DNA from: an uncultured Eubacteriales bacterium
GTDB taxonomy: Bacteria > Bacillota > Clostridia > Oscillospirales > Oscillospiraceae
DNA length: 53,117 nt
Assembly (NCBI GenBank): GCA_900321275.1
Contig: ONVI01000012.1
Location: 1-53,117 of the forward strand
Reading direction: 5' to 3'
The notes below the pieces were generated by a model. The model was not told the origin of the DNA. It worked only from the letters and a program-made list of their open reading frames with translations, and searched no databases. Shown in pieces: positions 23,447 through 48,212 of this stretch. The number at the start of each line of letters is the position of its first letter. The stretch's first letter is position 1. Both the position numbers and the translations under genes were made by a program.

Positions 23447-23561
23447 TGGGGCCTTGATACTGTATAACTGTGGTTCTTTTGCATGCGCAGCAACCGAAAG
23501 TGTTATCAGCGAGCAGGATGCTTCTTCTGACGAATACCTGTATTGTAAAGAGAAGGGTGAA

Positions 23562-26555: not shown

Positions 26556-26567
26556 AGGGAGCGCGGG

Positions 26568-27902
26568 ATGGATCAGGAACAGGAGCTGGGGCAGGACTTT
26601 AGCTTCGCCTCCCTGGGTAAATTTGTCGCCCCCAGCATTTTTACTTTCGTTTTCATCGCGGTCTACCAGATGGTGGACGGGCTTTTTATCGAACGCTTCG
26701 TCGGGGAAATGGCCATCAGCGCCATCAACCTCTATTATCCCATCATCAGCCTCTTTATTGCCATCGGCGTCATGATCGGCACCGGCGGCAACGCCGTCAT
26801 CGTCAAAAAGGTAGGGGAGGGCAAGCGGAAAGAGGCGGGCGAAACCTTCTCCCGCGTCATCAGCTTTACGATCCTATGCGGCATTGCCTGTACTGCGATA
26901 TGCCTCGTATTCGCCGATCCTGTTATGCGCCTGTGCGGAGCAACGGACGGAAATATCGAATTTCTCCGCCCCTATTACCTCACGCTCAGCACCTTCTGCA
27001 TCGCCATCCTGCTCCAGTCGGAGCTCGGCATTCTGATCATCGGCGAGGGGAAAACCGTCGTTGCCGCAATCGTCATTATGGTGGGCGGCGTGCTCAACTG
27101 CGTGCTGGACTATGTCTTCATGCGCAATCTGAACATGGGCATCCGCGGCGCCGCCATCGCCACGGTGATCGGCTACTGCACCACGATCGCCTACGCGATC
27201 TGGTTCTATGTGATTGCCCGCAAGAGCTCCTATCATCTTGAGCTTGCAAAACCCGACCTGAAGGAGATCGGCTTCATCTGCTTCAACGGCTCCTCAGACA
27301 TGATCTCCAATCTCGCCCAGGGCGTCACGGTGCTGTTCATGAATCATCTGGCCTATCGCTGCTACGGCGAGGTCGGCGTCAGCGCTTTGACGGTGGTGAC
27401 CTATGTGCAGGTACTGATCATGATGGTCTTCATGGGCTTTACCTCCGCGGTGGAGCCGGTGTTTTCCTACCATTACGGCAGCGGAAACACGGAGATGCGA
27501 AGGAAGGTTTATCGACTCAGCATCCGGTGGTGCCTGGTGCTTGGCGCGGCGATCATGCTGCTGCTCTTCTTTTTCCGAAGCCAAGTGATCGATGTTTTCT
27601 TTGATCCGGGGACGTCTTTTTTTGACATCGCCTCGCTGGGCTATCTGCTCTCGCTGCCGGCCTGCCTTTTCGTCGGCGTCAACATCTTCGGCTCCGGGCT
27701 GTTTACGGCATTTTCCAACGGACTCGTATCAGGATTTTTGTCATTCGTGCGAACCTTCCTGATCCTGACAGCCTGCCTGTACGGTCTGACTGCTTTCTTC
27801 GGCGGCCCCGGCCTCTGGAGCGCCTGGCCGGCGGCGGAGTTTTTCAGCTGCCTTGTGACTGTATTTTTCCTGCGAAAGTATCGCAGCCGTTACCAATACT
27901 GA
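26568..27902 (+). CDS. MATE-family efflux transporter
   Basis: 444 residues, AAAGGGAG before the ATG, 12 bases after the synthetase. Twelve hydrophobic helices in two MATE halves: VAPSIFTFVFIAVYQMVDGLFI and INLYYPIISLFIAIGVMIGTGGNAVIVKK at the N-terminus, and SDMISNLAQGVTVLFMNHLAY starting the second half. MATE proteins export cationic or amphipathic small molecules using H+ or Na+ gradients. Its position directly after the synthetase makes the synthetase product the leading candidate cargo (inference). The N-terminus DQEQELGQDFSF is short and cytosolic. Confidence 0.92.
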   Translation: MDQEQELGQDFSFASLGKFVAPSIFTFVFIAVYQMVDGLFIERFVGEMAISAINLYYPIISLFIAIGVMIGTGGNAVIVKKVGEGKRKEAGETFSRVISFTILCGIACTAICLVFADPVMRLCGATDGNIEFLRPYYLTLSTFCIAILLQSELGILIIGEGKTVVAAIVIMVGGVLNCVLDYVFMRNLNMGIRGAAIATVIGYCTTIAYAIWFYVIARKSSYHLELAKPDLKEIGFICFNGSSDMISNLAQGVTVLFMNHLAYRCYGEVGVSALTVVTYVQVLIMMVFMGFTSAVEPVFSYHYGSGNTEMRRKVYRLSIRWCLVLGAAIMLLLFFFRSQVIDVFFDPGTSFFDIASLGYLLSLPACLFVGVNIFGSGLFTAFSNGLVSGFLSFVRTFLILTACLYGLTAFFGGPGLWSAWPAAEFFSCLVTVFFLRKYRSRYQY

Positions 27903-27918
27903 ATAAAGGAGAATCACT

Positions 27919-28218
27919 ATGCTGAATATCACCACAAAACGCGAGGGCGAAAACCTGCTTGTCCGTCTCGACGGACAGCTTGACAGGCTGACGGCACCGC
28001 AATTGTACGATACCCTGACAGCCAATCTGGACGGCGTAAAGAATCTCACGCTGGACTTTGAAAAGCTGGATTACACCTCCTCCGCAGGTCTGCGCGTGCT
28101 GTTGGCCACGGAGAAGGAAATCGGGAAGAAGGGCCGTATGGAGATCATCCACGTCAACGAGATGATCATGGACGCCTTTGAAGTCACGGGACTGGTGGAT
28201 ATATTCAATATTGTCTGA
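27919..28218 (+). CDS. STAS-domain anti-sigma factor antagonist-like protein
   Basis: 99 residues, a single STAS domain with AAAGGAGA upstream, 16 bases after the MATE gene. RLDGQLDRLTAPQLYDTL and LTLDFEKLDYTSSAGLRVLL follow the SpoIIAA/RsbV pattern. S55 aligns with the serine phosphorylated by the partner kinase. In partner switching the unphosphorylated form sequesters an HATPase kinase, and a PP2C phosphatase regenerates it. The next gene is such a phosphatase. No kinase or sigma factor gene is in this operon, so its target is the main open question. Confidence 0.93.
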   Translation: MLNITTKREGENLLVRLDGQLDRLTAPQLYDTLTANLDGVKNLTLDFEKLDYTSSAGLRVLLATEKEIGKKGRMEIIHVNEMIMDAFEVTGLVDIFNIV

Positions 28219-28256
28219 GCCAGCTTCCTTCGGGAAAAACCGGAAAGAGCTTTCAC

Positions 28257-29936
28257 ATGAAGAAAAACATATCAATCCGTTTTAAGCTCAATATTCTGAT
28301 CACCGGCATCATTCTGCTGGTCTCGATAAGCCTGGTTTTCGTCTACTATCGCGTACACTGCGAGACGGTGGATGAGCGCAACTTTGAGCTCGTCAGAAAG
28401 GCTGCGGTCTCGTCGAAGGATTATGATTTTATCAACGATGTCAGACAATTGCGCGAGACCATTTTGACCGAGAGCTTTCAGGAGCTTCGCCGGGAAGCGC
28501 TGGACGCGCAGGACCCGGAGATGATCCGAAACTATCTGGACGGCATCGAATGCGAGAGCCGCTACAGCGCTACGCTGCTGGAGTCTGTCGAAAACGTCGG
28601 GGATACGCTCATGGTGGCTACGGAGCTTTTCGGCGTGGACACGATCTACTTGCAGTTCGACCAGAACGGCGTGACCTATAACCTGGTTGATCCGTGCGAG
28701 GATATTTTCTGGATCGGTTCGATCGAGGAATCAATCTATGAGTTTGAGGAATACGAAGATAATGTGCGTATTCCGCCCACGGTCTACCATTCGGTCTACG
28801 GCTGGCGCTGCACGGCCTGCGAGCCGGTCCAGGACCCGGAGACGGGAGAACCGATATATTCTGTGGGCGCCGATGTAGACATGAATCAGGTCATACAAGA
28901 GCGGCACGAGTTCTTCTTTCAGAGCATTCTGCTTGTATTGATTCTGACGGTACTGGCCATCCTTATCTCCACACTTATGGCAAAACGCATGATCACGCAT
29001 CCGCTTCGTCAGCTCTCCGAAGCCACAAAGGCGTTCGCACATGAAGAAAACGGCTGTTCCAGAGACAGCGTTGCCAATCTTGATATACGCTCCCAGGATG
29101 AGATCGGGGAACTGTACCGTGACATTCGTTCCATGGAGGAGCGCATTGTGGTTTACACAGAAAATCTGACACGGATCACGGCGGAGCGGGAGCGCACGGA
29201 AACCGAACTGCGCACCGCCGCGGGAATCCAGATGTCCGTGCTGCCGGAGATCAGCGAATCCATTTCGGAGCGTCCTGAATTTGAACTTGCCGCCAGCATG
29301 AGCCCGGCGAAAGAGGTCGGCGGCGACTTTTACGATTTCTTCTTCATCGATGGGGATCATCTTGCGCTGGTGATCGCCGACGTGTCCGATAAGGGCGTGC
29401 CTGCGGCGCTGTTCATGATGTCTTCGAAGATCCTGCTTAATTACCGTGCCCGTCTGGGCGGAAGCCCGTCGGAAATCCTCAGCGCCGTGAATGTGGAGCT
29501 CTGCCGCAACAATCCCACCGATATGTTTGTGACGGTCTGGCTCGGGATCCTAGAGCTTTCGACAGGCCGTCTGTGCTGCTGCAACGCCGGACATGAGTAT
29601 CCCTTCCTCAGACAGAACGGGCGGTTCGCGCTCTATAAAGACAAGCATGCCCTGATGGTCGGTGCCCGTGAAGGAGTTCGTTACCGGGATTGTGAAATTC
29701 AGCTGTCTCCCGGCGACGCAATCTTTGTTTACACGGACGGCGTGCCGGAGGCGAAAAATGCGGAGAACGATTTTTTCGGACTGGAGCGCACGGAGCAGGT
29801 GCTCAACAACGCTGAAAAGGAGAGCGCTGAGGGAATCCTTGACGCCATCAGGCAGGTGACGGACGCCTTCCGGGGAGAAGCGCAGCAATTTGACGACCTT
29901 ACCATGCTCTGCGTGATTTATAAAGGCCGACAATAG
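28257..29936 (+). CDS. Membrane-anchored SpoIIE/RsbU-type PP2C phosphatase with HAMP
   Basis: 559 residues. Helix one (~10-28), a ~190-residue extracellular sensor, helix two (~222-242), a HAMP segment beginning KRMITHPLRQLSEATKAF, a short coiled coil, then the PP2C domain (~320-559). The metal-binding acids are in place: GGDFYDFF, IADVSDKGVPAALFM, FVYTDGVPEA and QFDDLTML. It should dephosphorylate a phospho-STAS protein, most simply the product of the preceding gene (38-base gap), in response to an external signal. The ribosome site is GGAAAGAG. This completes the synthetase-MATE-STAS-phosphatase operon. Confidence 0.93.
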   Translation: MKKNISIRFKLNILITGIILLVSISLVFVYYRVHCETVDERNFELVRKAAVSSKDYDFINDVRQLRETILTESFQELRREALDAQDPEMIRNYLDGIECESRYSATLLESVENVGDTLMVATELFGVDTIYLQFDQNGVTYNLVDPCEDIFWIGSIEESIYEFEEYEDNVRIPPTVYHSVYGWRCTACEPVQDPETGEPIYSVGADVDMNQVIQERHEFFFQSILLVLILTVLAILISTLMAKRMITHPLRQLSEATKAFAHEENGCSRDSVANLDIRSQDEIGELYRDIRSMEERIVVYTENLTRITAERERTETELRTAAGIQMSVLPEISESISERPEFELAASMSPAKEVGGDFYDFFFIDGDHLALVIADVSDKGVPAALFMMSSKILLNYRARLGGSPSEILSAVNVELCRNNPTDMFVTVWLGILELSTGRLCCCNAGHEYPFLRQNGRFALYKDKHALMVGAREGVRYRDCEIQLSPGDAIFVYTDGVPEAKNAENDFFGLERTEQVLNNAEKESAEGILDAIRQVTDAFRGEAQQFDDLTMLCVIYKGRQ

Positions 29937-34104: not shown

Positions 34105-34177
34105 CTAAAGGCGGAATCCTGCTTCGCTTTTGCATTCATCCGCGATTGAGAACGCTCATCCGATTGGAGGGATTTCT

Positions 34178-35888: not shown

Positions 35889-35910
35889 TCTGTCCTTTTT
35901 CCTCGCTTCG

Positions 35911-35951
35911 GGCGCCTTCCGCCGATACCCGGTTGACGGAGGGCGCCGTTT
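35911..35951 (+). terminator. Terminator-like hairpin after the permease genes
   Basis: GGCGCCTTCCG (35911-35921) pairs with CGGAGGGCGCC (35937-35947), one G-U, followed by a short GTTTATT. Probably a partial terminator between transport and hydrolase genes. Confidence 0.5.
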
Positions 35952-36011
35952 ATTGATGTTCCTGGTCAAGACAGCGATGAATGCAGGCACATCAATCATG
36001 ATTGAATTGTC

Positions 36012-36094
36012 GTTTCGCTCGCCCCTGGCGGGGCAACCGCGAAACATGGCAAAATTGCTCCCCAACAAATTCAAGAATTTATTGGGGGCGCAAT
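36012..36094 (+). promoter_or_regulatory. Structured leader of the beta-galactosidase gene
   Basis: Two consecutive stem-loops end 28 bases before the start codon. In the first, GTTTCGC and GCGAAAC enclose GCCCC/GGGGC (36012-36045). In the second, ATTGCTCCCCA pairs imperfectly with TGGGGGCGCAAT (36054-36094). They may stabilise the message or serve as operator or attenuator. Confidence 0.45.
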
Positions 36095-36122
36095 AATAAT
36101 TGCATAACAAGGAGCGTTTTCC

Positions 36123-39100
36123 ATGAATGAATTCAGCTTTGACCGGGTTGCGAGAAACCCGGCAATTTTTGCGGTGGGGCGTCTGCCGGCCCACTCCGAC
36201 CATATTCCGTATCGTACGGCGCAGGAGCTGCGCGCGGGCGTAAGCAGTCTGCGGCTCCCGCTCGACGGCGTGTGGCGCTTTCATTACGCGAAAAATCCCT
36301 CCGCCGCGCCCGAAGGCTTCTGGGCGGCGGATTACGACGTCAGCGGCTGGGACTGCATCCGCGTCCCGGCGCATATCCAGATGGAGGGCTATGACAAACC
36401 CGCCTATGTGAACACCCAGTACCCCTGGGACGCGGACGAGGAACTGCAGCCCGGCGAAATGCCGACGGTTTTCAACCCTGTGGCCGACTACGTACTGGAT
36501 TTCCGACTTCCCGCAGGCTTTTGCGGCGGGGAAGTACATGTCCTGTTTGAAGGCGTGGAGAGCGGCTTCGCCCTCTGGCTTAACGGAAATTACGTCGGCT
36601 ACAGCGAAGACAGCTTCACACCTTCGGAATTTGACTTGACTCCCTGGCTGCGGGAAGGGGAGAATCGTCTGGCTGTCCGCGTGTACAAATGGACGCCCGG
36701 GAGCTGGTTTGAGGATCAGGACTTTTACCGCTTTTCCGGCATCTACCGCAGCGTCTGGCTCTGCCTTGTCCCGGAGACGGCGGTGCTCGATCTCTCGGTC
36801 GTGCCGCTGGTATCGGAAGAGCTCACGGCGGGCACTGTGGAAATCACCGCAACAACAAAGGGCGCGGGCAGCCTGCGCCTCACGCTCACGGATGAGGGGC
36901 GCACCATCGCTGCGGGAGAGGCCTTCTTTGAAGACGGGTTGGCCGCCGCCGAGCTTGCGGTTCCCGCGCCGGTTCTTTGGAGCGCCGAGTTTCCGAAGCT
37001 CTACACGCTTCTCCTCGAGGTCTGCAGTCAAGAGGGGAGCGTCACGGAGGTCATTCGCCAGCGCCTGGGCTTCCGCCGCTTTGAATTAAAAGGCGGTCTC
37101 ATGCTGCTCAACGGAAAGCGCATCGTCTTCAAGGGCGTTGACCGCCATGACTTCAGCTCCAAACAGGGCCGTGTCCCCGATCGGGAGGAGCTTGTGCGCG
37201 ATATCGTCACCATGAAGCGCAACAACATCAACGCCATCCGTACCAGCCACTATCCCAACCAGTCCGCGCTCTATGAACTCTGTGATGAATACGGCCTCTA
37301 TGTCATGGACGAGAACAACATGGAGACCCACGGGAGCTGGGACGCGCTCTTCCGTCAGCAGGCCGGAACCGATTACGTGATCCCTAAGGACCACGAGGAG
37401 TTTGCGCCCCTGCTGCTGGATCGCGTCAACAGTACCTATCAACGGGACAAGAACCACCCCTGTGTGCTGATCTGGTCCTGCGGCAACGAGAGCTTCGGCG
37501 GCAAGGTGATCTATGAGATGAGCGAGCTTTTCCGTCGTCTTGATAAGCATAGACTCGTCCACTATGAGGGCATTTTTAACGACCGCAGTTATCCGGCCAC
37601 CAGCGACATGGAGAGTCAGATGTATACCCCCGCCGCCGAGGTCGAGCGCTTCCTTGCCGAAAATCCGGACAAGCCCTTCATCCTCTGCGAATATACCCAC
37701 GCCATGGGCAATTCCTGCGGCGCAATGCACAAATATACCGAGCTGTCCGACCGTGAGCCGCGTTATCAGGGCGGCTTCATCTGGGACTATGTCGACCAGT
37801 CGCTCTGGAAAAAGGATCGCTGCGGCAAGTGGTTCCAGGCATACGGCGGAGACTGCTGTGAGCGGCCCACCGATTACAACTTCAGCGGCAACGGCATCGT
37901 CTACGGCGGCGACCGCACTCCCTCGCCCAAAATGCAGGAGGTTAAATATAACTATCAGAACATCTCTGTCATTTTTGACGAAACCGGCTTCACGGTCAGG
38001 AATAAAAACCTTTTCCTGAATACCGACATGTATACTGCTGCTGCCATTTTGCAGCAGGACGGAACAGAGCGCCTGCGCATACCGCTTGACATATCGGTAC
38101 CGCCGCTGTCGGAAGCGTATTTTGCCATTCCTGCTGCCGTCGAAGAGGAAATGCGTGCGCAGGAGGCCACGGCCTCGCAGCCTGGAAGATCGCTGCCTGA
38201 GTTTGCGGTGACGGTCTCCTTTTGCCTGAAGGAGGATACGATCTGGGCCAAGGCCGGGCACGAGATTGCCTTCGGTCAGAAGGTTTTCAAACGCGAGAAG
38301 GCTGCGTTTGTCTGTGATGAGCCCCTTCGTGTGGTGCGGGGCAAATGGAATCTCGGCGTACACGGCCGGAACTTCTCGGCGCAGTTCTCCGCGATCCGCG
38401 GCGGTCTGACCTCCTATATCTTCAGCGGTACGGAGATGATTGAGCAAATCCCCATGCCCAATTTCTGGCGCGCGCCGATTGACAACGACCGCGGCAACGG
38501 TATGCCCCAGCGCTATGCCCAGTGGAAGATCGCAAGCCTCTATGGAATCGGCATCGGCCCCCAGGCGCCGCTGTTCCCGGAGGTCGAGCAGAAAGAGCAC
38601 AGCGTTGCCGTCACCTTCGACTATCTTCTGCCCACCAATCCTCTGAGCGGCTGCAGGCTCCGTTATGAGGTGTTCGGGGACGGAACCGTGCAGACGACGC
38701 TCTCCTACAAGGCGGTCGAGGGCCTGTGTGACATGCCGGAGTTCGGCGTGATGTTCAAGCTCAATGCCGACTACGACCGCGTAGTCTGGTACGGCCTTGG
38801 GCCGGAGGAGAGCTATGTCGACAGGCAGAAGGGGGCAAAGCTCGGCGTATACGAAAAGAGCGTGGCGGAGAATATGGCGCGCTACCTTGTGCCGCAGGAG
38901 TGCGGAAACAAGTGCGGCGTACGCTGGGCGAAAGTCGTGGATCGGCGCGGCCGCGGCATGGAGTTTTCCGGGGACGAGCTGTCCTTCAGCGCCCTGCCCT
39001 GGACGCCGCATGAACTGGAGAACGCCGCCCATGACTATGAGTTGCCCACGGTACACTATACCGTGGTTCGTGTCGCACTGCAGCAGATGGGCGTCGGCGG

Positions 39101-39191
39101 GGACAACAGCTGGGGCGCGCAGACGCATCCCGAATACCTCCTGCCAAAGAACAAGGATCTGACATTTACCTTCCGTTTCAAGGGGATCTGA
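36123..39191 (+). CDS. lacZ: GH2 beta-galactosidase (LacZ type)
   Basis: 1,022 residues, the usual length of LacZ, with AAGGAGC before the ATG. Domain order is jelly-roll (~1-215), Ig-like (~216-320), TIM barrel (~320-620), Ig-like, then the large beta-sandwich typical of long LacZ proteins. The acid/base is E456 in SCGNESFGG. The nucleophile is E523 in ILCEYTHAMGNS. DENNMETHGSWD and the IRTSHYPN block are also intact. It hydrolyses terminal beta-galactosides such as lactose. No signal peptide, so it acts in the cytoplasm on imported sugar. The alpha-galactosidase starts 2 bases after its stop. Confidence 0.95.
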   Translation: MNEFSFDRVARNPAIFAVGRLPAHSDHIPYRTAQELRAGVSSLRLPLDGVWRFHYAKNPSAAPEGFWAADYDVSGWDCIRVPAHIQMEGYDKPAYVNTQYPWDADEELQPGEMPTVFNPVADYVLDFRLPAGFCGGEVHVLFEGVESGFALWLNGNYVGYSEDSFTPSEFDLTPWLREGENRLAVRVYKWTPGSWFEDQDFYRFSGIYRSVWLCLVPETAVLDLSVVPLVSEELTAGTVEITATTKGAGSLRLTLTDEGRTIAAGEAFFEDGLAAAELAVPAPVLWSAEFPKLYTLLLEVCSQEGSVTEVIRQRLGFRRFELKGGLMLLNGKRIVFKGVDRHDFSSKQGRVPDREELVRDIVTMKRNNINAIRTSHYPNQSALYELCDEYGLYVMDENNMETHGSWDALFRQQAGTDYVIPKDHEEFAPLLLDRVNSTYQRDKNHPCVLIWSCGNESFGGKVIYEMSELFRRLDKHRLVHYEGIFNDRSYPATSDMESQMYTPAAEVERFLAENPDKPFILCEYTHAMGNSCGAMHKYTELSDREPRYQGGFIWDYVDQSLWKKDRCGKWFQAYGGDCCERPTDYNFSGNGIVYGGDRTPSPKMQEVKYNYQNISVIFDETGFTVRNKNLFLNTDMYTAAAILQQDGTERLRIPLDISVPPLSEAYFAIPAAVEEEMRAQEATASQPGRSLPEFAVTVSFCLKEDTIWAKAGHEIAFGQKVFKREKAAFVCDEPLRVVRGKWNLGVHGRNFSAQFSAIRGGLTSYIFSGTEMIEQIPMPNFWRAPIDNDRGNGMPQRYAQWKIASLYGIGIGPQAPLFPEVEQKEHSVAVTFDYLLPTNPLSGCRLRYEVFGDGTVQTTLSYKAVEGLCDMPEFGVMFKLNADYDRVVWYGLGPEESYVDRQKGAKLGVYEKSVAENMARYLVPQECGNKCGVRWAKVVDRRGRGMEFSGDELSFSALPWTPHELENAAHDYELPTVHYTVVRVALQQMGVGGDNSWGAQTHPEYLLPKNKDLTFTFRFKGI

Positions 39192-39193
39192 GC

Positions 39194-41419
39194 ATGAATA
39201 TTGTTTACCATGCCAAAAGCAAAACCTTTCATTTGTATAACGACAGCCTCAGCTATATCATGACCGTGCTGCGAAACGGCCATCTCGGACAGCTCTACTG
39301 CGGCGAACGCATTCACGACCGTGAGGATTTCTCATATTTTCTGGAGCTTGCGCCGAGGGCCATGAGCGCGTGTCCCTATGAAAACGACCGCAGTTTTTCT
39401 CTGGAGCATATCAGGCAGGAGCTGCCATCCTTCGGCACGGGGGATTATCGCGACGGCGCTGTGGAGCTTTTGCAGGCAGACGGCAGCCGTCTCACGGATT
39501 TTCGTTATGTAAACCACAGTATCACACCGGGCAAGCCCAGACTCAGAGGCCTGCCCGCCACCTATACGGAGTCGGATGACGAAGCGATGACTCTGCTTGT
39601 CACCCTTCGCGACGATTTGACCGGCGTCACGGCGGAGCTCGGTTATACGATCTTTCGAGATTTCGGCGCAATCGCAAGAAGCGTTCGCTATATGAATGAG
39701 GGGGAGAAGACCGTTACGCTTACCCGTGCAATGAGCCTCTGCCTTGATCTGCCGGATTGCGATTACGACTGGCTGCAGTTTTCCGGCTGCTGGACGCGGG
39801 AACGCAAACCCATCTGCCGCAGACCGGAGCAGGGGATCCTTGCAGTCGGCAGCAGGAGGGGACACTCCTCTCATGAGCAGAACCCCTTCGTCGTCCTCAA
39901 ACGTGCGACGGCGGACGAGGATCAGGGAGAGGCGTTTGGCCTTTCACTCGTATACAGCGGCAACTTCCTGATCCAGGCGGAGGTCGATGCGCACAGCACG
40001 CTGCGCCTTTTGGCGGGCATCCACCCGGAGGGTTTCGGCTGGCGTCTCGAACCGGGGGAAGCTTTCCAGAGCCCGGAGGCCGTGCTGGTCTACTCCGCCG
40101 GAGGCCTCGGCGAGATGAGCCGTACTTTCCACCGCCTGTACGGGCGACGGCTTGCGCGCGGCGTCTGGCGGGATCAGCCTCGTCCCATTCTGATCAACAA
40201 CTGGGAAGCAACCTATTTTGATTTTAACGAGGATAAACTGCTGCGCTTGGCGCGCCAGGCAAAGGACTGCGGAATCGAGCTCTTTGTCCTGGACGACGGC
40301 TGGTTCGGCCGCCGCAAGGACGACCGCGCAGGCCTCGGGGACTGGACGCCGAACCCAGCCCGTCTGCCGAACGGAATCAAAGGTCTTGCCGAAAAGATCG
40401 AGGAACTGGATATGCGCTTCGGCCTCTGGTTCGAACCGGAGGCCGTCAGCAAAAACTCAGCGTTGTACGAGCAGCACCCGGACTGGCTGCTGGCCACGCC
40501 GGGCCGCACCGCTTCGCTGGGGCGCTATGAGTACATCCTGGACTTTTCCCGCCCTGAGGTTGTGGACAATATCCATGCCCAGATGGCGTCGGTACTCGGC
40601 AGCGCAAAGGTCTCCTATGTCAAGTGGGACATGAATCGCAGCATCAGCGAGTGTTATTCTGCCGCCCTGCCGCCGGAGCGTCAGGGTGAGGTATATCACC
40701 GCTACATTCTCGGCGTGTACGATCTCTATGAGAGGCTGACGTCTGAGTTTCCGCAGATTCTCTTTGAATCCTGCGCCAGCGGCGGCGGGCGCTTTGATCC
40801 GGGTATGCTCTACTATGCCCCCCAGTGCTGGACGAGCGACAACACCGACGCCGTGGAGCGCCTGCGCATCCAGTACGGTACCTCCTTCTGCTATCCGCTC
40901 AGCAGCATGGGCGCACATGTCTCAGCGGTGCCGAACCACCAGATGTTCCGCGTAACCCCTCTGGAGACACGGGCGAATGTGGCCTGCTTCGGCACCTTTG
41001 GCTATGAGCTTGACCTTGGACGGCTCAGCGCTGAGGAGATTGAGGAGATCAAAAAGCAGGTCATCTTTATGAAGGAGTACCGGACGCTTCTGCAGTTCGG
41101 GGATTTCTATCGCCTGAAAAGCCCCTTCAAAGGCAACACCGCCGCCTGGATGACGGTAAGCGCGGACAAGCGCCGTGCCATTGCAGGCTTCTACCGCATC
41201 CTGAACACCAGCAACGACGCCTATACCCGGCTGCGCCTGCGCGGTCTCGACCCCGACAGGCTCTATCGGATCAAGGGGGTGGAGACCTGTCATTACGGGG
41301 ATGAGCTGATGCGCGCCGGACTCATCACGTCGGACTCCACCGCCGGAGAGCTTTTGAACGGTGCAAAGCCCTGCACGGATTTTTCATCACGACTGTATAT
41401 TCTTGAAGCACAAGACTGA
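39194..41419 (+). CDS. GH36 alpha-galactosidase
   Basis: 741 residues, AAGGGGA upstream, two bases after the beta-galactosidase and clearly in the same operon. An N-terminal supersandwich (~1-320) leads to a TIM barrel with NNWEATYFDFNEDKL, VLDDGWFGRRKDDR, the nucleophile D479 in YVKWDMNR, and the acid/base D549 in CWTSDNTDA. A C-terminal beta domain follows. It removes terminal alpha-1,6-galactose from raffinose-family oligosaccharides, melibiose or galactomannan fragments. It has no signal peptide, so import through the upstream ABC permeases precedes cleavage. Confidence 0.95.
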   Translation: MNIVYHAKSKTFHLYNDSLSYIMTVLRNGHLGQLYCGERIHDREDFSYFLELAPRAMSACPYENDRSFSLEHIRQELPSFGTGDYRDGAVELLQADGSRLTDFRYVNHSITPGKPRLRGLPATYTESDDEAMTLLVTLRDDLTGVTAELGYTIFRDFGAIARSVRYMNEGEKTVTLTRAMSLCLDLPDCDYDWLQFSGCWTRERKPICRRPEQGILAVGSRRGHSSHEQNPFVVLKRATADEDQGEAFGLSLVYSGNFLIQAEVDAHSTLRLLAGIHPEGFGWRLEPGEAFQSPEAVLVYSAGGLGEMSRTFHRLYGRRLARGVWRDQPRPILINNWEATYFDFNEDKLLRLARQAKDCGIELFVLDDGWFGRRKDDRAGLGDWTPNPARLPNGIKGLAEKIEELDMRFGLWFEPEAVSKNSALYEQHPDWLLATPGRTASLGRYEYILDFSRPEVVDNIHAQMASVLGSAKVSYVKWDMNRSISECYSAALPPERQGEVYHRYILGVYDLYERLTSEFPQILFESCASGGGRFDPGMLYYAPQCWTSDNTDAVERLRIQYGTSFCYPLSSMGAHVSAVPNHQMFRVTPLETRANVACFGTFGYELDLGRLSAEEIEEIKKQVIFMKEYRTLLQFGDFYRLKSPFKGNTAAWMTVSADKRRAIAGFYRILNTSNDAYTRLRLRGLDPDRLYRIKGVETCHYGDELMRAGLITSDSTAGELLNGAKPCTDFSSRLYILEAQD

Positions 41420-41591: not shown

Positions 41592-43508
41592 TCAGGCTGC
41601 GGCGTTGAAGGAGATGCTGCCCTGATTGATGATGAAGTCGGCATTCGGGGTGGCATAGCTGCCGCCGAAGATGTCATTGATGCAGAAGGAATACAGATAG
41701 TCTCCATCCGGCAGAGGCCCGAAACCAAGGGTGTCGCCGTCGGTCCAGATATACTCGTCGCCGGTAAACTCAGACGGTTCAAAGGTCTCCGCGTCGTAAG
41801 CGTCATAGGCGGGAATGATATGGTCACCGACCTTCAGAGACTGATCCGGGCGGGCGGCGATGCCGTTATCGCCGACGCCGTCCCAAAGGTCCAAAAGCTC
41901 GACCTCACCCGTGTCATGATGCCAGGCAAAGCGGAGATTGGTGAGCTCATCGTTGACCATGACAGGGCTGGTGTAGAGGTCATAATCATCACTCTCGCTG
42001 ACGAGCTTGACGAAGAGGTTCTGTCCGTCGGGCATCGAAAACCAGTAACCGTCAAAATCGTCTTCAATACGGCCGGTATTCCAGTCAGCCAGCACGTCGC
42101 TGGTTGTACCGAGAGAAATGACGTTCTTCTTGTCATCTGTGTACATATAGACCGTTGCTTCCACAGACACGGTATTGTTCAGACCTTTATCCGAGAGGAC
42201 GAAATAGTAGACATCGTTTTCATCGACAGTGGGCTCCTCCTGGAAGGTGATGGCCGTGCTCTGTGTGTAGTCGGGAACCATGGAATCAAAGTCCCAAGGG
42301 GTGTTCGGGTCATATCCCGCCCAGCTGCCGCCGTTGGCAAAGCCATAGGCGATCTTGCTGACCAGAGCGAGATAGTGGGTGCTGACAGCGACATCCCGGA
42401 AAACGGACAGCTCCTTGGAGCCCTGTACCTGGAGAGGATAATAGACCGAAAGGCCGCTGGCATTGGGGTGGTTTCCTCCCCGGACCTGGTAGACGACCGC
42501 GGCATTCTCCGCATCGCGGACAGGCTGGGCGTTGGAAGACCATTTGGATCCGGCGTCAACCAGACCGCCAAGGTCGACCATGTTGGTGTAGCCCTCGCTG
42601 CGGTTGTTGCCGCCAAAGTTTTCCGCAGCGACGATGGCACGGCAGATGGGGGCAAAGTTTGTTTCGTCCTCCGTCGCGTCATAGAGATGCTCGGCATAGG
42701 CCTCGAAGGCAGAGCAGAGCGCGCTGATTTTGCTCAGGTCGATCAGGGCAAGCGTAGCGCCGGCACTCTCGTCATTATCCACACAGTTCTGATAGAAACC
42801 GTCGCAGATGGCCTTGCCGAGCGTGGCAGCGTCGACAGCGGGGTCCGCGGCGGTCGCTTCGCCGATCGCCTTATAGTTCCAGCCGGTGCCGGGCTCGACT
42901 TCCTGGGAACCGATCATGTATTTTGCGTGAGAGGAAAGCATATTGGCGTTTTCAAGGGTGCCCATCAGGCAGGCGTCATAGCCGATGAAGTCGAAGCCGC
43001 CCGGCAGTGCGTCCTTCGTATTGTTGAGCGCATCGTCGATCGTCCTCAGGGTGAGACTCTGGCTGTCAAAATTGTCATCAAAGCAGACACCGGTAATGCT
43101 GCCGCCGCCGTGGTCCCAGAAGACCAGACCGTTGTGGGCGGAAGGATACGTTGTAAGACCCCAGCGGAGGAAAGCTTCCAGCGTCTGGGAATCGCCCATG
43201 CTGGCCTGGGGCTGCCGGTCGACGATCGTGCTGGTCCCGCCGGCGATTTCAAAACGATCCAGCTCGTTCGGCGAAGCGTCGTTTTGCCAGGCGCTCGCGC
43301 CGCCGGTCTCAACGATAAAACGCACGCTGGAGTTTGCGGTCGCGTCGATCATTTCCTGCATGTTTACACTGGCGTAGCCGTCCTCGCTTTCAAGGTTCGA
43401 CCCGCAGATATACACAAAGATCGTCCAGCCGTCATTGTCAGCGAAGGCAGAAGTGCAAAAAGACATGCACAACACAAGCGCGACAAGAATTGCAATGAAT
43501 TTTTTCAA
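41592..43508 (-). CDS. Secreted clostripain-family (C11) cysteine peptidase
   Basis: 638 residues from a TTG start with AGGAGG 8 bases upstream. The signal peptide ends at TSAFA. The C11 catalytic dyad is H133 in FWDHGGGS and C180 in GYDACLMGTLENA. FVYICGSNLES, GSQEVEPGTGW and VSKIAYG segments are also typical. Family members cleave after Arg or Lys and often self-activate. The ~200-residue C-terminal part (after ~430) is rich in beta structure and may bind substrate or cell wall. It is transcribed alone from a strong promoter. Confidence 0.92.
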   Translation of the reverse strand: MKKFIAILVALVLCMSFCTSAFADNDGWTIFVYICGSNLESEDGYASVNMQEMIDATANSSVRFIVETGGASAWQNDASPNELDRFEIAGGTSTIVDRQPQASMGDSQTLEAFLRWGLTTYPSAHNGLVFWDHGGGSITGVCFDDNFDSQSLTLRTIDDALNNTKDALPGGFDFIGYDACLMGTLENANMLSSHAKYMIGSQEVEPGTGWNYKAIGEATAADPAVDAATLGKAICDGFYQNCVDNDESAGATLALIDLSKISALCSAFEAYAEHLYDATEDETNFAPICRAIVAAENFGGNNRSEGYTNMVDLGGLVDAGSKWSSNAQPVRDAENAAVVYQVRGGNHPNASGLSVYYPLQVQGSKELSVFRDVAVSTHYLALVSKIAYGFANGGSWAGYDPNTPWDFDSMVPDYTQSTAITFQEEPTVDENDVYYFVLSDKGLNNTVSVEATVYMYTDDKKNVISLGTTSDVLADWNTGRIEDDFDGYWFSMPDGQNLFVKLVSESDDYDLYTSPVMVNDELTNLRFAWHHDTGEVELLDLWDGVGDNGIAARPDQSLKVGDHIIPAYDAYDAETFEPSEFTGDEYIWTDGDTLGFGPLPDGDYLYSFCINDIFGGSYATPNADFIINQGSISFNAAA

Positions 43509-43636
43509 TCAGAATTCCTCCTTCGTTTTTTCTCCGTGGTGAATTTGTATGCAGTTTATGCGCTTGCATGCACCGCCATATAAGGTTCTTCGACGATGAA
43601 ACAACCATTTTTTGCCAAACTGCTTATATAATATAT

Positions 43637-43664
43637 ATTATATTCATGGGTCCGAGAAAGTCAA
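43637..43664 (-). promoter_or_regulatory. Sigma-A promoter of the C11 peptidase gene
   Basis: On the minus strand, TTGACT (43664-43659), a 16-base spacer and TATAAT (43642-43637). It sits in an AT-rich TATATATA tract about 130 bases upstream of the start. Confidence 0.7.
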
Positions 43665-43715
43665 TGGGGATGCTGCAAAATTTTGCAGGATAAAAGGCCG
43701 TTGATCGTTAATGAT

Positions 43716-43735
43716 GAACGCGCCCCGGCGCGTTC
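43716..43735. repeat. Palindrome at the edge of the degenerate tRNA unit
   Basis: GAACGCGCC and GGCGCGTTC pair around two C, directly before the segment shared with the intact tRNA unit. Three different palindromes stand at the corresponding position beside the intact unit (45904-45971). Confidence 0.7.
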
Positions 43736-43874
43736 GATGATGATTCGATCTCCATCGGACAAAACAAAAAAGCCACCGAATGGTGACTTTTGTTTTGGTG
43801 GACGCGAAGTGGATCGAACCCTCAAACCTCACGGATGAGAAGCGTGCGCTATCCCATACGCGAGAGTTATGACC
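43735..43874 (-). pseudogene. Degenerate tRNA-Ala copy with its terminator
   Basis: 140 bases similar to 45971-46109, the intact tRNA-Ala plus terminator, in the same orientation. Within it, 43796-43874 is tRNA-like and keeps the CCA end, T-arm and part of the anticodon arm. The acceptor stem no longer pairs, the anticodon stem has a mismatch, and the anticodon loop now reads TTCTCAT (CTC) instead of TTCGCAT. A working tRNA is unlikely. It and the intact copy bracket the MATE-HATPase gene. Confidence 0.8.
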
Positions 43875-43908
43875 TTAACCTTATGTAGTGATACGCTTTT
43901 CTTATCCC

Positions 43909-43937
43909 TTGCATTGCGCCGCTTTTGTGCGTATAAT
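43909..43937 (+). promoter_or_regulatory. Sigma-A promoter of the MATE-HATPase gene
   Basis: TTGCAT (43909-43914), a 17-base spacer and consensus TATAAT (43932-43937). It supports a start codon well downstream of the tRNA-like sequence rather than the in-frame ATG at 43869, which lies inside that sequence. Confidence 0.75.
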
Positions 43938-44018
43938 GGATATACGGTGTTCAGCGATCTGTCGAGCCTGCTGAATCTTCCGTTTCTTTCACAGGATCAT
44001 TGTATGGAGGCGCTATAC

Positions 44019-45788
44019 TTGAAACAAAAATCAAACGAATACAAGCTGCTGACCGAGCTGTATTTCCGGCTTTTGCCCTATCAGGTTCTGCTGCTTGCCA
44101 TCAACGCGATCAACGGGATTGTGGACACCCTCTATGCCAGCAACGTGATCGGGAAGGCAGCGATGAGCGCAATCGGGATTTTCGGGCCGATCAACATCTT
44201 CCTCAGCGCAGCGAGCCTTATGCTGGTCAGCGGCTCACAAATCCTCTACGGCCGGTACGTGACCACGAAAAGAGAGAAGCTCCCGGAGTTGTTTACGGTT
44301 GATCTGCTGATCGCCCTCGGCATCTCCCTGCTGTCCACTGCGGTATTGGCTCTCGCCGTGGCGACGGGCCTGACGCGGCTTCTGCTTTCCCAGCAGCCGG
44401 ATCTGCAAATGCTGAACCGGTATATCCTCGGACAGCTTGGCGGGATTCCGCCGCTTTTGATGGGACAGCAGCTTTTTTCATTCCTCTCCCTGCAAAATCA
44501 GACGCGGCGCACCATGATCGCAAGCGTTGCAAGCTTTTTGAGCAATATCGTGTTCAACCATCTTTTTATTGTGATCTTTCCCATGGGCACGTTTGGCCTG
44601 GGGCTTGGAACCGCGCTCTCAAACTGGGTGTTTTTCGGCATCCAGGCCGTCTATTTCCTGCGGAGGCAAACGGAGCTGCGCTTCTCTCTGCGCACGTGGC
44701 GGCGCGAGGAGGGCAGACAGATCATCAGACTCGGTTATCCCGGCGCGATCGCCCGCTTTGGGGAGATGCTGCGCTGCCTGATCGTGAATTCGCTGGTGCT
44801 GAAATATGTCGGGAGCGTCGGCATTTCCTCGTTCTCCGCGTCCAATTCTCTTCTGTCCATCATCTGGGCGGTTCCCTTCGGCATGGCTGCCGTGTGCAGG
44901 ATGCTTTTCAGCATCAGCATCGGGGAGGAGGATCGCAAATCCCTGGTGAATACGATGAAGATCACGATGACGAAGGGCATGCTCCTGATGTTCATGATTG
45001 TGGCACTGCTGATTCTGTTGGCTGAACCGCTGACCCGTCTGTTTTACCGGGAGCCTGCCGATCCCGTGTATCATATGACGGTGATGGGCTTTCGCCTGCT
45101 GCCGCTTTGTATGCCCTGGTCCATGATCAGCATACACTTTGCATGCTACGCGCAGACTGCGGAAAAGCGGAGGCTGGCGGTGGTGCTGCCGGTGGTTGAC
45201 GGAGTGATCGGCGTGGTACTGTTCAGCTTCCTGCTGATCCCCTCCATGAAGATGAACGGACTGTACATTGCCAATAGCTGCAACGGCATGCTCTGCGCGG
45301 CGGTGGTCGTAGTGGATGCGTGGATTTCGCGCGGGAGCTTCCCGCGTAACCTGGAGGAACTAATGGCGATTCCGGAGCGGATCGGCGTACCGGAAAACGA
45401 GCGCATCGACATCAGCGTGAACAGCATGGCGGAGGTTGTGAGCGTCTCCCAACAGATCGGCGATTTCTGCCTGGAGCGGGGAATCGACCGACGCAGGGCA
45501 TATTTCGCCGGCCTGTGCATGGAGGAGATGGCAGGCAACGTTATCAAACACGGCTTCGTGAAGGACGGAAAGAAGAACCACATCGACATACGTGTGGTAC
45601 ACAAGGGGGACGACATGATCCTGCGCATCCGTGACAACTGCACGGCCTTTAATCCGGCCGAGCGCGCAAACGCGATGGAGCCGGGCGAAACGGGGAAAAA
45701 CATCGGCATCCGCATGGTCTACAAGATCGCCGGGGATGTGAGTTATCAGAATTTGCTGGGCCTGAATGTACTGACCATACGAATTTGA
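44019..45788 (+). CDS. MATE transporter fused to a C-terminal RsbW-like HATPase domain
   Basis: 589 residues from TTG at 44019, with GGAGG 8 bases upstream. Alternatives are the ATGs at 44004 and 43869, which lack a site. Residues ~1-445 form a MATE transporter of twelve helices (YFRLLPYQVLLLAINAINGIVDTLYA; second half from YPGAIARFGEMLRCLIVNSLVLKYVG). A ~20-residue linker leads to a GHKL ATPase domain (~465-589). This has the N-box EEMAGNVIKHGF (N507), the RIRDNCTAFNP box and a GKNIGIRMVYKIAG lid. That arrangement is the anti-sigma-factor serine kinase type (RsbW/SpoIIAB), not a sensor-kinase type, as no HisKA is present. It could phosphorylate a STAS protein such as the one at 27919-28218. 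The fusion is, to my knowledge, not a described architecture. Confidence 0.88.
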   Translation: MKQKSNEYKLLTELYFRLLPYQVLLLAINAINGIVDTLYASNVIGKAAMSAIGIFGPINIFLSAASLMLVSGSQILYGRYVTTKREKLPELFTVDLLIALGISLLSTAVLALAVATGLTRLLLSQQPDLQMLNRYILGQLGGIPPLLMGQQLFSFLSLQNQTRRTMIASVASFLSNIVFNHLFIVIFPMGTFGLGLGTALSNWVFFGIQAVYFLRRQTELRFSLRTWRREEGRQIIRLGYPGAIARFGEMLRCLIVNSLVLKYVGSVGISSFSASNSLLSIIWAVPFGMAAVCRMLFSISIGEEDRKSLVNTMKITMTKGMLLMFMIVALLILLAEPLTRLFYREPADPVYHMTVMGFRLLPLCMPWSMISIHFACYAQTAEKRRLAVVLPVVDGVIGVVLFSFLLIPSMKMNGLYIANSCNGMLCAAVVVVDAWISRGSFPRNLEELMAIPERIGVPENERIDISVNSMAEVVSVSQQIGDFCLERGIDRRRAYFAGLCMEEMAGNVIKHGFVKDGKKNHIDIRVVHKGDDMILRIRDNCTAFNPAERANAMEPGETGKNIGIRMVYKIAGDVSYQNLLGLNVLTIRI

Positions 45789-45852
45789 CAGGAAACCGCG
45801 TTTACGAAACATTTTTAGGGACGGTTGCCGTTATTTTTACTCTTTTTTCATG

Positions 45853-45874
45853 GATGCCTTTTGAGACAGCCCCT
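45853..45874. repeat. Solo MITE-like end
   Basis: TGCCTTTTGAGACAGCC matches the terminal repeat of the element at 14794-14939 (TGCATTTTGAGACAGCC). No partner end is nearby, so this is a relic. Confidence 0.55.
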
Positions 45875-45877
45875 AAG

Positions 45878-45898
45878 TGGTGGACTCGAAGGGGATCG
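45878..45898 (-). repeat. 21-bp duplicate of the tRNA-Ala 3' end
   Basis: Identical to 46033-46053, the CCA end and acceptor/T-arm side of the tRNA gene, in the same orientation 155 bases away. Duplicated tRNA 3' ends are the usual trace of site-specific integration, but no integrase lies between them. Confidence 0.8.
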
Positions 45899-45903
45899 CT
45901 TGC

Positions 45904-45971
45904 ATCGGCTGCGCCGATATAGGTATTCACCAGCGTGCGCGCTGGTTCATGCACATGCCGCCGGCATGTGC
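45904..45971. repeat. Three consecutive G+C-rich palindromes
   Basis: ATCGGC-TGC-GCCGAT (45904-45918), ACCAGCG-TGCG-CGCTGGT (45929-45946) and GCACATGCC-GCC-GGCATGTGC (45951-45971). All have tight 3- to 4-base loops, and they sit between the tRNA-end duplicate and the tRNA terminator. Confidence 0.8.
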
Positions 45972-46002
45972 GATGATGATTCGATCCCCTTCGGACAAAA
46001 CA

Positions 46003-46028
46003 AAAAAGCCACCACATGGTGACTTTTT
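46003..46028 (-). terminator. Terminator of the tRNA-Ala gene
   Basis: On the minus strand, AAAAAGTCACC and GGTGGCTTTTT pair (one U-G) around ATGT, immediately after the CCA end, with a T-tract. The same hairpin follows the degenerate copy near 43770-43792. Confidence 0.8.
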
Positions 46029-46032
46029 GTTT

Positions 46033-46109
46033 TGGTGGACTCGAAGGGGATCGAACCCTCGAACCTCACGGATGCGAACCGTGCGCTCTCCCAGCTGAGC
46101 TACGAGCCC
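46033..46109 (-). tRNA. tRNA-Ala (anticodon CGC)
   Basis: 77 nucleotides including an encoded CCA. Acceptor GGGCTCG pairs with CGAGTCC, giving the G3-U70 pair that identifies alanine tRNA. The D-arm GCTC..GAGC, anticodon stem CACGG/CCGTG with loop TTCGCAT, and T-loop TTCGATC are all well formed. It reads GCG codons. Confidence 0.92.
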
Positions 46110-46143
46110 TTATTTAATTGCTGCTTCATCTGACAGCTTTTGT

Positions 46144-46171
46144 ATTATAGCACACTTTTCAAAAAAGTAAA
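46144..46171 (-). promoter_or_regulatory. Promoter of the tRNA-Ala gene
   Basis: On the minus strand, TTTACT (46171-46166), a 16-base spacer and TATAAT (46149-46144), 35 bases upstream of the tRNA. Confidence 0.55.
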
Positions 46172-46182
46172 GAAAAATTTTA

Positions 46183-46211
46183 TTGAAATTTTCAAAAAGA
46201 TGGTGTATAGT
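46183..46211 (+). promoter_or_regulatory. Sigma-A promoter of the SRP RNA gene
   Basis: TTGAAA (46183-46188), a 17-base spacer and TATAGT (46206-46211), with the RNA beginning about 10 bases later. It is divergent from the tRNA promoter. Confidence 0.8.
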
Positions 46212-46221
46212 ATCGTCGTGG

Positions 46222-46511
46222 CTTTTGACAAGGCTGCACTAGTTGGGGAGCCAGCGGTGCCCTGTAACCTGCAATCCGCTACAGCAGGGATGAATTCCCG
46301 ATCGAGGATATGTTCTGTGTCGTCTGACCCCGGTAAGCAGCGTTGACGATCCGGTCTCGCGCAACGGGAACCCGTGAACCATGTCAGGCGGGGAACCGAG
46401 CAGCATTAAGCGGTGCTTTTCGTGTGCCGTGAGGCAGCCGGGTCCGAGCCGGCTGCCGGCGTAACGGATATAGGACATTATTCGGAGTCGGGTGTGCAGT
46501 CTTGTCAAGAG
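46222..46511 (+). ncRNA. ffs: Signal recognition particle RNA, large Gram-positive type
   Basis: About 290 nucleotides. The ends pair over ~18 bases (CTTTTGACAAGGCTGCAC with GTGCAGTCTTGTCAAGAG). The 5' part has the Alu-like folds (TGGGGAGCC, CCTGTAACC, GCAATCCGCTAC). The Ffh-binding helix 8 motif is at ~46383-46412 (ATGTCAGGCGGGGAACCGAGCAGC). Location immediately upstream of dnaX is the standard Firmicutes arrangement. It scaffolds the particle that targets nascent membrane and secreted proteins. Confidence 0.93.
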
Positions 46512-46544
46512 CCATGATGTTTTTAAACCGAGGGAGGGGAGCGG

Positions 46545-48212
46545 ATGTATCAGGCGCTTTACCGGAAATGGCGGCCTCAGACCTTTGACGAGGTCGTGGG
46601 GCAGAAGCATATTACGGAAACGCTGAAAAACCAGGTTAAGACCGGCCGCCTTTCTCATGCCTATATCTTTATCGGCACAAGGGGGACGGGCAAAACAACC
46701 TGCGCCCGCATCCTGGCCAAAGCCGTCAACTGCGAAAACCCGGTGAACGGCAATCCCTGCGGGGTATGTCCGGCCTGCCGCGGGATCAGCGAGGGCTCCG
46801 TGCTTGACGTGGTGGAGCTGGACGCCGCCTCCAACAACTCTGTGGACAATGTCCGTGCCCTGCGGGAGGAGGCTGTTTTCAGCCCGGCGACGGTGAAGAA
46901 AAGAGTATACATCGTGGACGAGGTGCACATGCTCTCGACCTCGGCCTTTAACGCTCTGCTCAAGATCCTGGAGGAGCCGCCGGAGCATCTGATGTTTATC
47001 CTCGCCACGACGGAACTCCAGAAGGTCCCGGCGACGATCCTTTCCCGGTGCCAGCGACACAGCTTCAAACGCATTGACGCACCTGCCATCGCGGAGTATC
47101 TTGAATTCATCGCCGGAAAAGAGGGTTTCAGGCTCGAGCATGACGCGGCGGAGCTTATCGCACGCCTGGCCGACGGCGGCGTACGCGATGCGCTGAGTCT
47201 GCTTGACCAGTGCTCTGCCAGTGAAATCATCAATCTCGACGCGGTTTACTACGCCATGGGTCTCTCAGGAAACCGGCGGACTGCCGCCCTGATGGGGAGC
47301 ATTCTTGACCATCAGACGGAGAAAGCGATCAAGGATTTTAACAGTCTGTGGATGGACGGGAAGGATCCCACCGTCCTTTTGACGGAACTGAGCAGCCTGC
47401 TGCGCGACACGCTGATGATGAAGATCGCTCCGCAGGGCGGGCAGAGCCTGATCTCCGGCGGCTATGACAGCGAAATGCTGGAATCGCTCGGGTCGCGCAT
47501 GACGAAGGATGAGCTGATTTGCGCCATGGAGACGCTGCAGACCGCGCAGACGAGGATCCGCGCCGGTGCAAGCCCCAAAACGACTGCGGAGCTGTGTCTT
47601 GTAAACCTCTGTGACAGCACGCTGGAAGACAGTATTGCGACTCTCCGGGCGAGAATATCAAGACTGGAAGAGCAGGTCAAAACCGGAATAACCGTTTGTG
47701 CCGTTCCTTCGCCGCCCGTTGAGGAAGAACTTCCGCCTCCGCCGGAGGAGGAATACCCAGAGCCCGCATCCTTCGAGCCGCCGTCATATATTTCACCGGT
47801 TTATGAGCCGGTATCGATGCAAACGGAAGCGGCTTCACCGCCTGCGGAAGCTTCTCAGGCGGCGGAACCGATGGAGATGCCGCCCGCGGAGAACAGCGCG
47901 ATCAGCGTGAGCTGGAAGGAAATTGCCGCGCAGACAGCGCCGGTTCTGCCCAAGGATATCAGCACCAGGCTCGATGATGAAAAGAGTGTACGCGGCAGGC
48001 TGGAAGGGCCGGTTCTGCGTCTGGAGGTAATTCCCGGATTCCTGTACGGGAGATTTAACCGTCAGGAAGTGCTGGCAAAGTTTTCGGAGACGGCAAGCAG
48101 ACTTGCTGGATATGAGGTTCGCGCGCAGCTGTCGGAATTGTCAGATGATCCCGGCAGCTCGAAGCGCAGCCTGGACGATCTCAAAGCATTTAAGGAAGTC
48201 AGATTTGTTTGA
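46545..48212 (+). CDS. dnaX: DNA polymerase III subunit gamma/tau
   Basis: 555 residues, GAGGGGAG before the ATG. The AAA+ ATPase occupies ~1-240 with Walker A GTRGTGKTT (K50), the zinc-binding cysteines (NPCGVCPAC), Walker B YIVDEVHML and sensor SRCQRHSFKRI. The domain III clamp-loader region follows. A Pro/Glu-rich linker (~385-465) then leads to a C-terminal tau-type domain. It is the motor of the clamp loader that places beta clamps on DNA. Confidence 0.97.
   Translation: MYQALYRKWRPQTFDEVVGQKHITETLKNQVKTGRLSHAYIFIGTRGTGKTTCARILAKAVNCENPVNGNPCGVCPACRGISEGSVLDVVELDAASNNSVDNVRALREEAVFSPATVKKRVYIVDEVHMLSTSAFNALLKILEEPPEHLMFILATTELQKVPATILSRCQRHSFKRIDAPAIAEYLEFIAGKEGFRLEHDAAELIARLADGGVRDALSLLDQCSASEIINLDAVYYAMGLSGNRRTAALMGSILDHQTEKAIKDFNSLWMDGKDPTVLLTELSSLLRDTLMMKIAPQGGQSLISGGYDSEMLESLGSRMTKDELICAMETLQTAQTRIRAGASPKTTAELCLVNLCDSTLEDSIATLRARISRLEEQVKTGITVCAVPSPPVEEELPPPPEEEYPEPASFEPPSYISPVYEPVSMQTEAASPPAEASQAAEPMEMPPAENSAISVSWKEIAAQTAPVLPKDISTRLDDEKSVRGRLEGPVLRLEVIPGFLYGRFNRQEVLAKFSETASRLAGYEVRAQLSELSDDPGSSKRSLDDLKAFKEVRFV

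Follow-up and report, generated by a model that had tools for sequence, protein, structure and literature searches.

A MATE exporter fused to an RsbW/SpoIIAB-type ATPase in gut and rumen Firmicutes, with relatives often located next to partner-switching genes

The fusion gene described here raises the question of what an RsbW/SpoIIAB-type ATPase might do when it is carried in one chain with a membrane exporter. The gene lies at positions 44019..45788 (plus strand) of the window, i.e. the whole 53,117-nt stretch of an uncultured Eubacteriales bacterium that was analysed. Partner switching is known mainly for the control of sigma factors and for a few other targets. An earlier note, made from the sequence of the window, had read the gene as a twelve-helix MATE transporter followed by a GHKL domain without HisKA, and had proposed that transport gates the phosphorylation of a STAS protein or that STAS binding gates transport.

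The gene forms one intact frame up to the stop at 45788. A start at the TTG at 44019, giving 589 aa, is well supported by a putative Shine-Dalgarno-like GGAGG at 44006..44010 and by the length of many close relatives (588-590 aa); an alternative upstream ATG at 44004 would give 594 aa and is the basis of the residue numbering used below. The frame carries two Pfam domains, namely a MATE domain (residues 12-445, 44037..45338), with 12 membrane helices predicted by homology, and an RsbW/SpoIIAB-type HATPase domain (PF13581; residues 467-594, 45402..45785). MatE scored 72 bits for a cut-off of 24.9 and HATPase_c_2 scored 32.8 bits for a cut-off of 27.4, and no Pfam match to HisKA was found at E<=0.01. 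The curated cut-off of TIGR00797 was not reached (130.5 vs 147.4 bits), and the MATE half is, by its sequence, a divergent member of the MATE transporters; the ATPase missed the cut-off of the RsbW equivalog NF003144 (15.6 vs 145 bits).

The AlphaFold2 model of the full chain consists of a MATE fold and a C-terminal Bergerat fold, with a mean pLDDT of 83.3. Because the rows of the full-length fold search were taken up by MATE and related flippases, the ATPase domain was modelled separately (pLDDT 89.5), and the fold search with this model returned an RsbW-like fold. Against solved structures, the single ATPase sequence gave nothing useful and its profile no match at 0.01, so that the assignment to this class is based on Pfam and on the fold. 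A histidine kinase was considered and rejected, HisKA being absent at the above threshold and the fold being clearly better matched to the anti-sigma type. The architecture proposed in the earlier note, with its uninterrupted frame, its MATE part preceding an RsbW/SpoIIAB-type GHKL domain and its lack of HisKA, is thus upheld, and this ATPase is not a free soluble protein since it shares its chain with a membrane domain.

A search of 5.8 billion proteins detected 949 that match the fusion at E<=1e-3 (among 7998 candidates scored), and both Pfam domains were found in 118 of the 120 homologues among the matches listed. One source automatically names a homologue "Na+-driven multidrug efflux pump/anti-sigma regulatory factor", so that the architecture is already visible in databases. 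Looking for such fusions across genomes, a check that the earlier note had suggested, yielded 62 loci in public genome contigs, mostly from rumen and gut Clostridia, Lachnospiraceae and Erysipelotrichaceae according to their titles. In a class-wide sample, the ATPase of the fusion was matched at 1e-15 in 22 of 391 genomes, and in a phylum-wide sample an ATPase match occurred in 8 of 398, one of which (G770) turned out to be a PP2C-ATPase.

In a tree of MATE parts, which has several long branches, a branch with an SH-aLRT of 93 separates 86 fusions from 53 plain MATEs, the fusion/plain state changing once vs a mean of 42.6 times in shuffles. Because one branch divides the two groups, a single fusion event followed by divergence would be the simplest reading. 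The dN/dS of the window fusion relative to three relatives is 0.26-0.29 for the MATE part and 0.14-0.25 for the ATPase, and both halves are under purifying selection. Among 3000 random pairs drawn from 177 full-length fusions, distant pairs (MATE identity <30%) have a mean identity of 44% in the ATPase vs 23% in the MATE part, the reverse of the situation in close pairs, where the MATE part is the more alike. The transporter half does not look dead, because the TM1 position aligned with Asp41 of PfMATE (also Asp41 in the window protein, 44124..44126) is D in 159 of the 177 full-length fusions; cation-coupled export, with which this Asp is in keeping, is putative.

These data confirm that the fusion is real and maintained. 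The earlier note had named a sequencing error joining two genes as what would overturn its reading; such an error, or a chance join, is ruled out by the homologues with both domains, the 62 loci, the single branch and the low dN/dS. A fusion that is accidental or free of selection, or two genes joined by a frameshift in the assembly, might be suspected given that most homologues have no source name, yet with both domains in nearly all of the matches listed, one tree branch and low dN/dS in both halves this explanation is practically out of the question.

In GHKL ATPases of this kind, the N-box Glu is catalytic and the N-box Asn is a ligand of Mg/ATP. The window protein has an N-box E508-M-A-G-N512 (45525..45539) and a D-box D544-N-C-T-A-F-N-P (45633..45656). 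An alignment of 182 rows was assembled from the 120 listed database matches, 61 locus ORFs and the query; it includes four copies of the window protein, reaches down to ca. 22% identity, and the distant fusions fetched later are absent from it. In this set E507, E508 and N512 are invariant (182/182) and D544 is D in 181 of 182 rows, the last one having a gap. The N-box Asn noted earlier as N507, which is N512 when counted from the ATG at 44004, and the D-box were therefore correctly recognised. The window lid reads K-N-I-G-I-R, with its end at N566-I-G568 (45699..45707), and has Asn where the usual G-x-G has its first Gly. This change recurs in 61 of 89 MATE-fused ATPases, a set that contains a few copies of the same gene, along with a D-box Gly to Cys replacement in 73 of the 89. 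The D-box Asp and the second lid Gly are 24 residues apart in 64 of these 89 fusions vs 28 residues in 21 of 25 other ATPases from the same stretches, and the lid Gly pair is kept in 23 of the 25 ATPases that are free-standing or joined to PP2C or STAS-APH.

In a later and wider set, 12 of 94 fusions (L086, L104, L106, L117, L118, L119, L163, L171, L175, L176, L178 and L179) lack the N-box Asn, and kinase activity is consequently not general among fusions; the MATE-attached ATPase of L171 and the ATPases of L175, L176, L178 and L179 were judged decayed by eye. The loss of ATP binding, which the earlier note had also listed as fatal to its reading, may apply to some relatives, the predicted ATP-site residues being nearly invariant in the 182-row set. 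One could argue that the ATPase serves mainly for docking or oligomerisation, its ATP turnover being of no importance and its role lying in STAS binding or something else, as its retention in the 12 Asn-less fusions would allow. This is improbable, considering that the Asn is kept in the other 82 and that Glu and Asn do not vary in an alignment of such depth. Among fusions that lie in gene clusters, in a tally made by hand, another ATPase occurs near 9 of 10 decayed ones vs 14 of 26 intact ones (p 0.06), so that a second kinase near decayed tethered ATPases is a tendency only. In L177, conversely, no kinase other than a MATE-fused ATPase with a full lid was found next to STAS and PP2C, on a contig that ends 0.8 kb later. 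The tethered domain may have begun as the kinase of its cluster and have turned, in places, into a docking receiver.

The gene neighbourhood of the fusions was then analysed in stretches of up to ca. 20 kb, with profiles for STAS, PP2C, ATPase and MATE that were built from the first loci and may miss remote members. In the class-wide sample, a STAS or SpoIIE-type PP2C gene occurs within 1 kb of 13 of 29 fusions, always on the same strand, and within 5 kb of 16 of 29; these 29 places include the window and a 348-aa fragment (L095) and exclude L086, a stretch retrieved on account of its PP2C and STAS genes. As controls, 42 plain MATE genes were taken from 40 stretches of the same genomes, one or two per genome, hand-picked from the top-scoring rows and hence not random. 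On the same strand, none of the 42 has STAS or PP2C within 9 kb; on the opposite strand, a STAS gene was found within 1 kb of two and within 9 kb of four. In the public genome contigs, many of which are truncated, STAS or PP2C lies within 1 kb of the fusion in 11 of 58 loci (10 on the same strand). Pooling was performed on clusters at 60% identity, leaving out L086, L163 and L171 (fetched for STAS/PP2C) and, among controls, the window trio described below, L165 and L168. It gave 15 of 38 fusion clusters vs 0 of 42 plain MATEs for the same strand within 1 kb (p 2e-6), 15/38 vs 1/42 for either strand within 1 kb (p 3e-5), and 20/38 vs 3/42 for either strand within 6 kb (p 1e-5). Overall, no STAS/PP2C gene lies on the same strand within 6 kb of 58 of the 89 fusions counted; with both strands considered, such a gene occurs at up to 6 kb from 6 of 52 plain MATEs. 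A fresh phylum-wide test comprised six loci outside the class: five, from three genera, hold a fusion, and all five adjoin PP2C and/or STAS on the same strand; the sixth has a PP2C-ATPase and a STAS gene without fusion.

Several of these loci occur as compact clusters. L099 encodes STAS, PP2C, MATE-ATPase and a STAS-APH-ATPase, L040 encodes PP2C-ATPase, STAS and MATE-ATPase, and L116, L117 and L119 are further clear cases. The genome of the window itself contains such a cluster (L086, 8763-12935), composed of a MATE-ATPase without the N-box Asn, a PP2C-HATPase and STAS. In a relative genome, G395, a single 1265-aa ORF (L171:4494-8288) encodes MATE, a decayed ATPase, a middle region, PP2C and an intact HATPase, with a STAS gene 0.8 kb downstream; this chain corresponds to the first two members of the L086 cluster, MATE-ATPase and PP2C-ATPase, joined in one protein. 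With the SigF-like protein of the genome as the one query, no SigF-like ORF was found within 6 kb of fusions; the two detected in all stretches are the query itself and one in L027, ca. 9.7 kb from the fusion. The association with STAS and PP2C genes and the four-part chain of L171 together make it most likely that the fusion belongs to a partner-switching module.

Some neighbouring genes were also found to encode STAS joined to an APH-type phosphotransferase (L014:11811-12986, L026:7903-9081, L048:15407-16567 and L099:9952-11541). PF01636 was found in L014 and L099, L026 and L048 being judged by similar length and sequence, and the L099 protein is further joined to a HATPase. No description of STAS-APH proteins was found in excerpts of the open-licence PMC literature.

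The situation in the window is different: the coupling to a STAS system put forward in the earlier note finds partial support in the gene surroundings of relatives, and the window fusion stands alone, with a clostripain-like gene on one side and tRNA-Ala, SRP RNA and dnaX on the other, and no STAS or PP2C in 14 kb upstream or in the 7 kb downstream to the end of the window. In its branch of 26 members, several on truncated contigs, L014 alone has a same-strand STAS/PP2C gene at 6 kb or less. The nearest PP2C and STAS genes, 14-16 kb upstream, belong to a plus-strand trio composed of a plain MATE transporter (26568..27902), a STAS protein (27919..28218) and a HAMP-bearing SpoIIE-type PP2C phosphatase adjoining the STAS gene (28257..29936). 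This trio is a possible source of partners for the window fusion, and its STAS and PP2C are candidates only: the choice of this STAS as the partner is not supported by anything beyond the shared genome. In G391 a matching trio and the fusion are on different contigs, with no STAS/PP2C in 48 kb of the fusion's contig, and in G392 the fusion's contig ends ca. 0.3 kb upstream and is hence uninformative on linkage; the trio STAS proteins of G391 and G392 are 52-55% identical to that of the window.

Elsewhere in the same genome, HATPase_c_2 exceeds its cut-off in SpoIIAB (C64), a PP2C fusion (C67) and the window fusion (C15), with four weaker matches (C54, C11, C22 and C23). Other profiles, or scores below the cut-off, reveal two further MATE fusions, one intact (C49) and one without N-box Asn (C67). 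STAS matches occur on C64, C67, C15 and C58, plus a ca. 630-aa protein on C43. Two free STAS genes (C15 and C58) and two intact MATE fusions thus remain unpaired, which is suggestive only, in a genome that is 93% complete.

Other features of the window were recorded. The trio is preceded by a gene for a 1048-aa adenylation-carrier-condensation protein (23409-29936 for the whole region), and the order MATE-STAS-PP2C is seen again in L165 and L168. At 34130-41419, two ABC permease genes stand ahead of genes for beta-galactosidase and GH36 alpha-galactosidase, together probably a sugar-use cluster. Direct repeats at 43725-43856 and 45961-46110, 88-91% identical, flank the fusion gene and hold part of a tRNA-Ala(cgc) and its flank; the downstream copy contains the intact tRNA-Ala(cgc) (46033-46109, minus strand), and a large bacterial SRP RNA lies directly upstream of dnaX (46234-46499). 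At the corresponding tRNA-SRP-dnaX site of G391 (L172), the stretch of 0.95 kb upstream from the tRNA has no counterpart in window positions 43400-46600. Because of this difference, and because the G391 fusion is on another contig, the tRNA site is possibly a variable spot for insertions.

How the two halves might work together can be considered in the light of known systems, in which, according to excerpts of PMC7340262, the phosphorylation of a STAS Ser is determined jointly by a PP2C phosphatase and an RsbW-type kinase, and Glu49 of RsbW directly contacts Ser56 of RsbV. The Ser in the TSSAGL motif of the window STAS protein aligns with RsbV Ser56 and the fusion has a Glu at the family position, on which grounds the fusion was placed in a partner-switching module. 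We consider it rather likely that the fusion is a membrane-tethered member of the STAS-kinase class working in such a module, with the exporter replacing the sigma factor. This reading draws on the fusion itself, its fold class, the conservation of its ATP site, purifying selection, the single branch and the gene clusters of relatives; it would entail STAS binding, STAS phosphorylation, a coupling to transport with a given direction, and a window protein that behaves like its clustered relatives. The C-terminal ATPase would bind ATP and dock a small STAS protein, whose acceptor Ser it might phosphorylate, and a SpoIIE-type phosphatase, HAMP-bearing in the window, would reverse this step. The MATE exporter would be the covalently attached partner in the place of the sigma factor, and the exporter's state and the binding of the STAS protein in its unphosphorylated form would influence each other. 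Counting against this reading are the isolated position of the window gene and of nearly all its branch, the many fusions without a STAS/PP2C neighbour, those that have lost the N-box Asn, the shortened lid with its Asn, and the few plain MATEs that also lie near STAS or PP2C genes.

The gene neighbourhood is an association and gives no direction; STAS systems running in either direction have been described (PMC10120452, in excerpt). The order that we favour would be from a signal to PP2C, STAS and then the exporter, the occupancy by STAS gating export. Two observations incline us to it: tethered ATPases that have decayed are retained where a further kinase exists, and the PP2C of the window has a HAMP domain, as a sensor would. 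In its full form, in which a sensor phosphatase and the tethered kinase set STAS occupancy of the exporter's cytoplasmic domain, so that export is switched directly without transcription and a decayed kinase becomes a pure STAS-docking receiver in some lineages, this proposal is tentative. Nearly equal in likelihood is the reverse, in which STAS phosphorylation is gated by the exporter with bound substrate. The MATE part would then be a sensor whose substrate-loaded or cation-bound state switches the ATPase, with STAS phosphorylation as output, as transporter-like domains may do in CbrA-type histidine kinases. The near invariance of the ATP site in the 182 rows suits such a transceptor, as do loci in which the PP2C gene lies 2 bp from the fusion (L096 and L097) or overlaps it (L177), no second kinase being found: these look like antagonistic kinase-phosphatase pairs. 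CbrA offers a precedent, for it transports histidine and is a kinase in one protein, its SLC5 part appearing to modulate autokinase activity and histidine having no significant effect on its activities (excerpts of PMC7096432). Many clusters, however, already hold another HATPase near the fusion, and the decayed tethered ATPases nearly always do, in the hand tally given above, which leaves the transceptor somewhat doubtful.

Many gut bacteria carry this fusion of an exporter to a kinase-like domain, and the frequent presence of the usual partners next to its relatives suggests a signalling switch wired to a transporter. If STAS-gated export or its reverse proved true, a switch built into an exporter would occur in a large family and would add direct control of transport to partner switching; it would also provide a tractable system for transporter-kinase communication within one chain, a function for numerous Firmicutes proteins of gut and rumen that have gone unnamed until now, and a lead on STAS proteins without an adjacent kinase gene.

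When compared to known systems, the fusion differs from the anti-sigma serine kinases RsbW, SpoIIAB and UsfX in that its ATPase is joined to an exporter and has an altered lid, shares 12-15% identity with theirs in aligned structures, and has no SigF-like gene within 6 kb in the fusions examined. Unlike the MATE exporters PfMATE, DinF-BH and NorM, it has a C-terminal kinase-like domain, and it falls below the curated TIGR00797 cut-off in spite of its clear MatE match. The Rv1364c RsbU-RsbW fusion (PDB 3ke6) likewise joins an RsbW-type domain to another module, which is a phosphatase and not an exporter. According to excerpts of PMC7096432 and PMC13022988, CbrA, an SLC5-STAC histidine kinase, resembles the fusion in having a transporter and a GHKL kinase in one chain, but its transporter is of the unrelated SLC5 family and its kinase, a histidine kinase with a response regulator as target, is not of the RsbW type. 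SypE/SypA and other non-sigma partner switches are similar in combining STAS, an RsbW-type kinase and a phosphatase with an output other than an anti-sigma factor, yet SypE is a kinase-REC-phosphatase protein without transporter (PMC10120452, in excerpt). No description of a MATE-HATPase architecture, MATE-STAS module or such a gene cluster was found in excerpts of open-licence PMC papers. Each half was already known, as were partner switches with other outputs and, in a different transporter family, fusions to a kinase; what is new is their combination.
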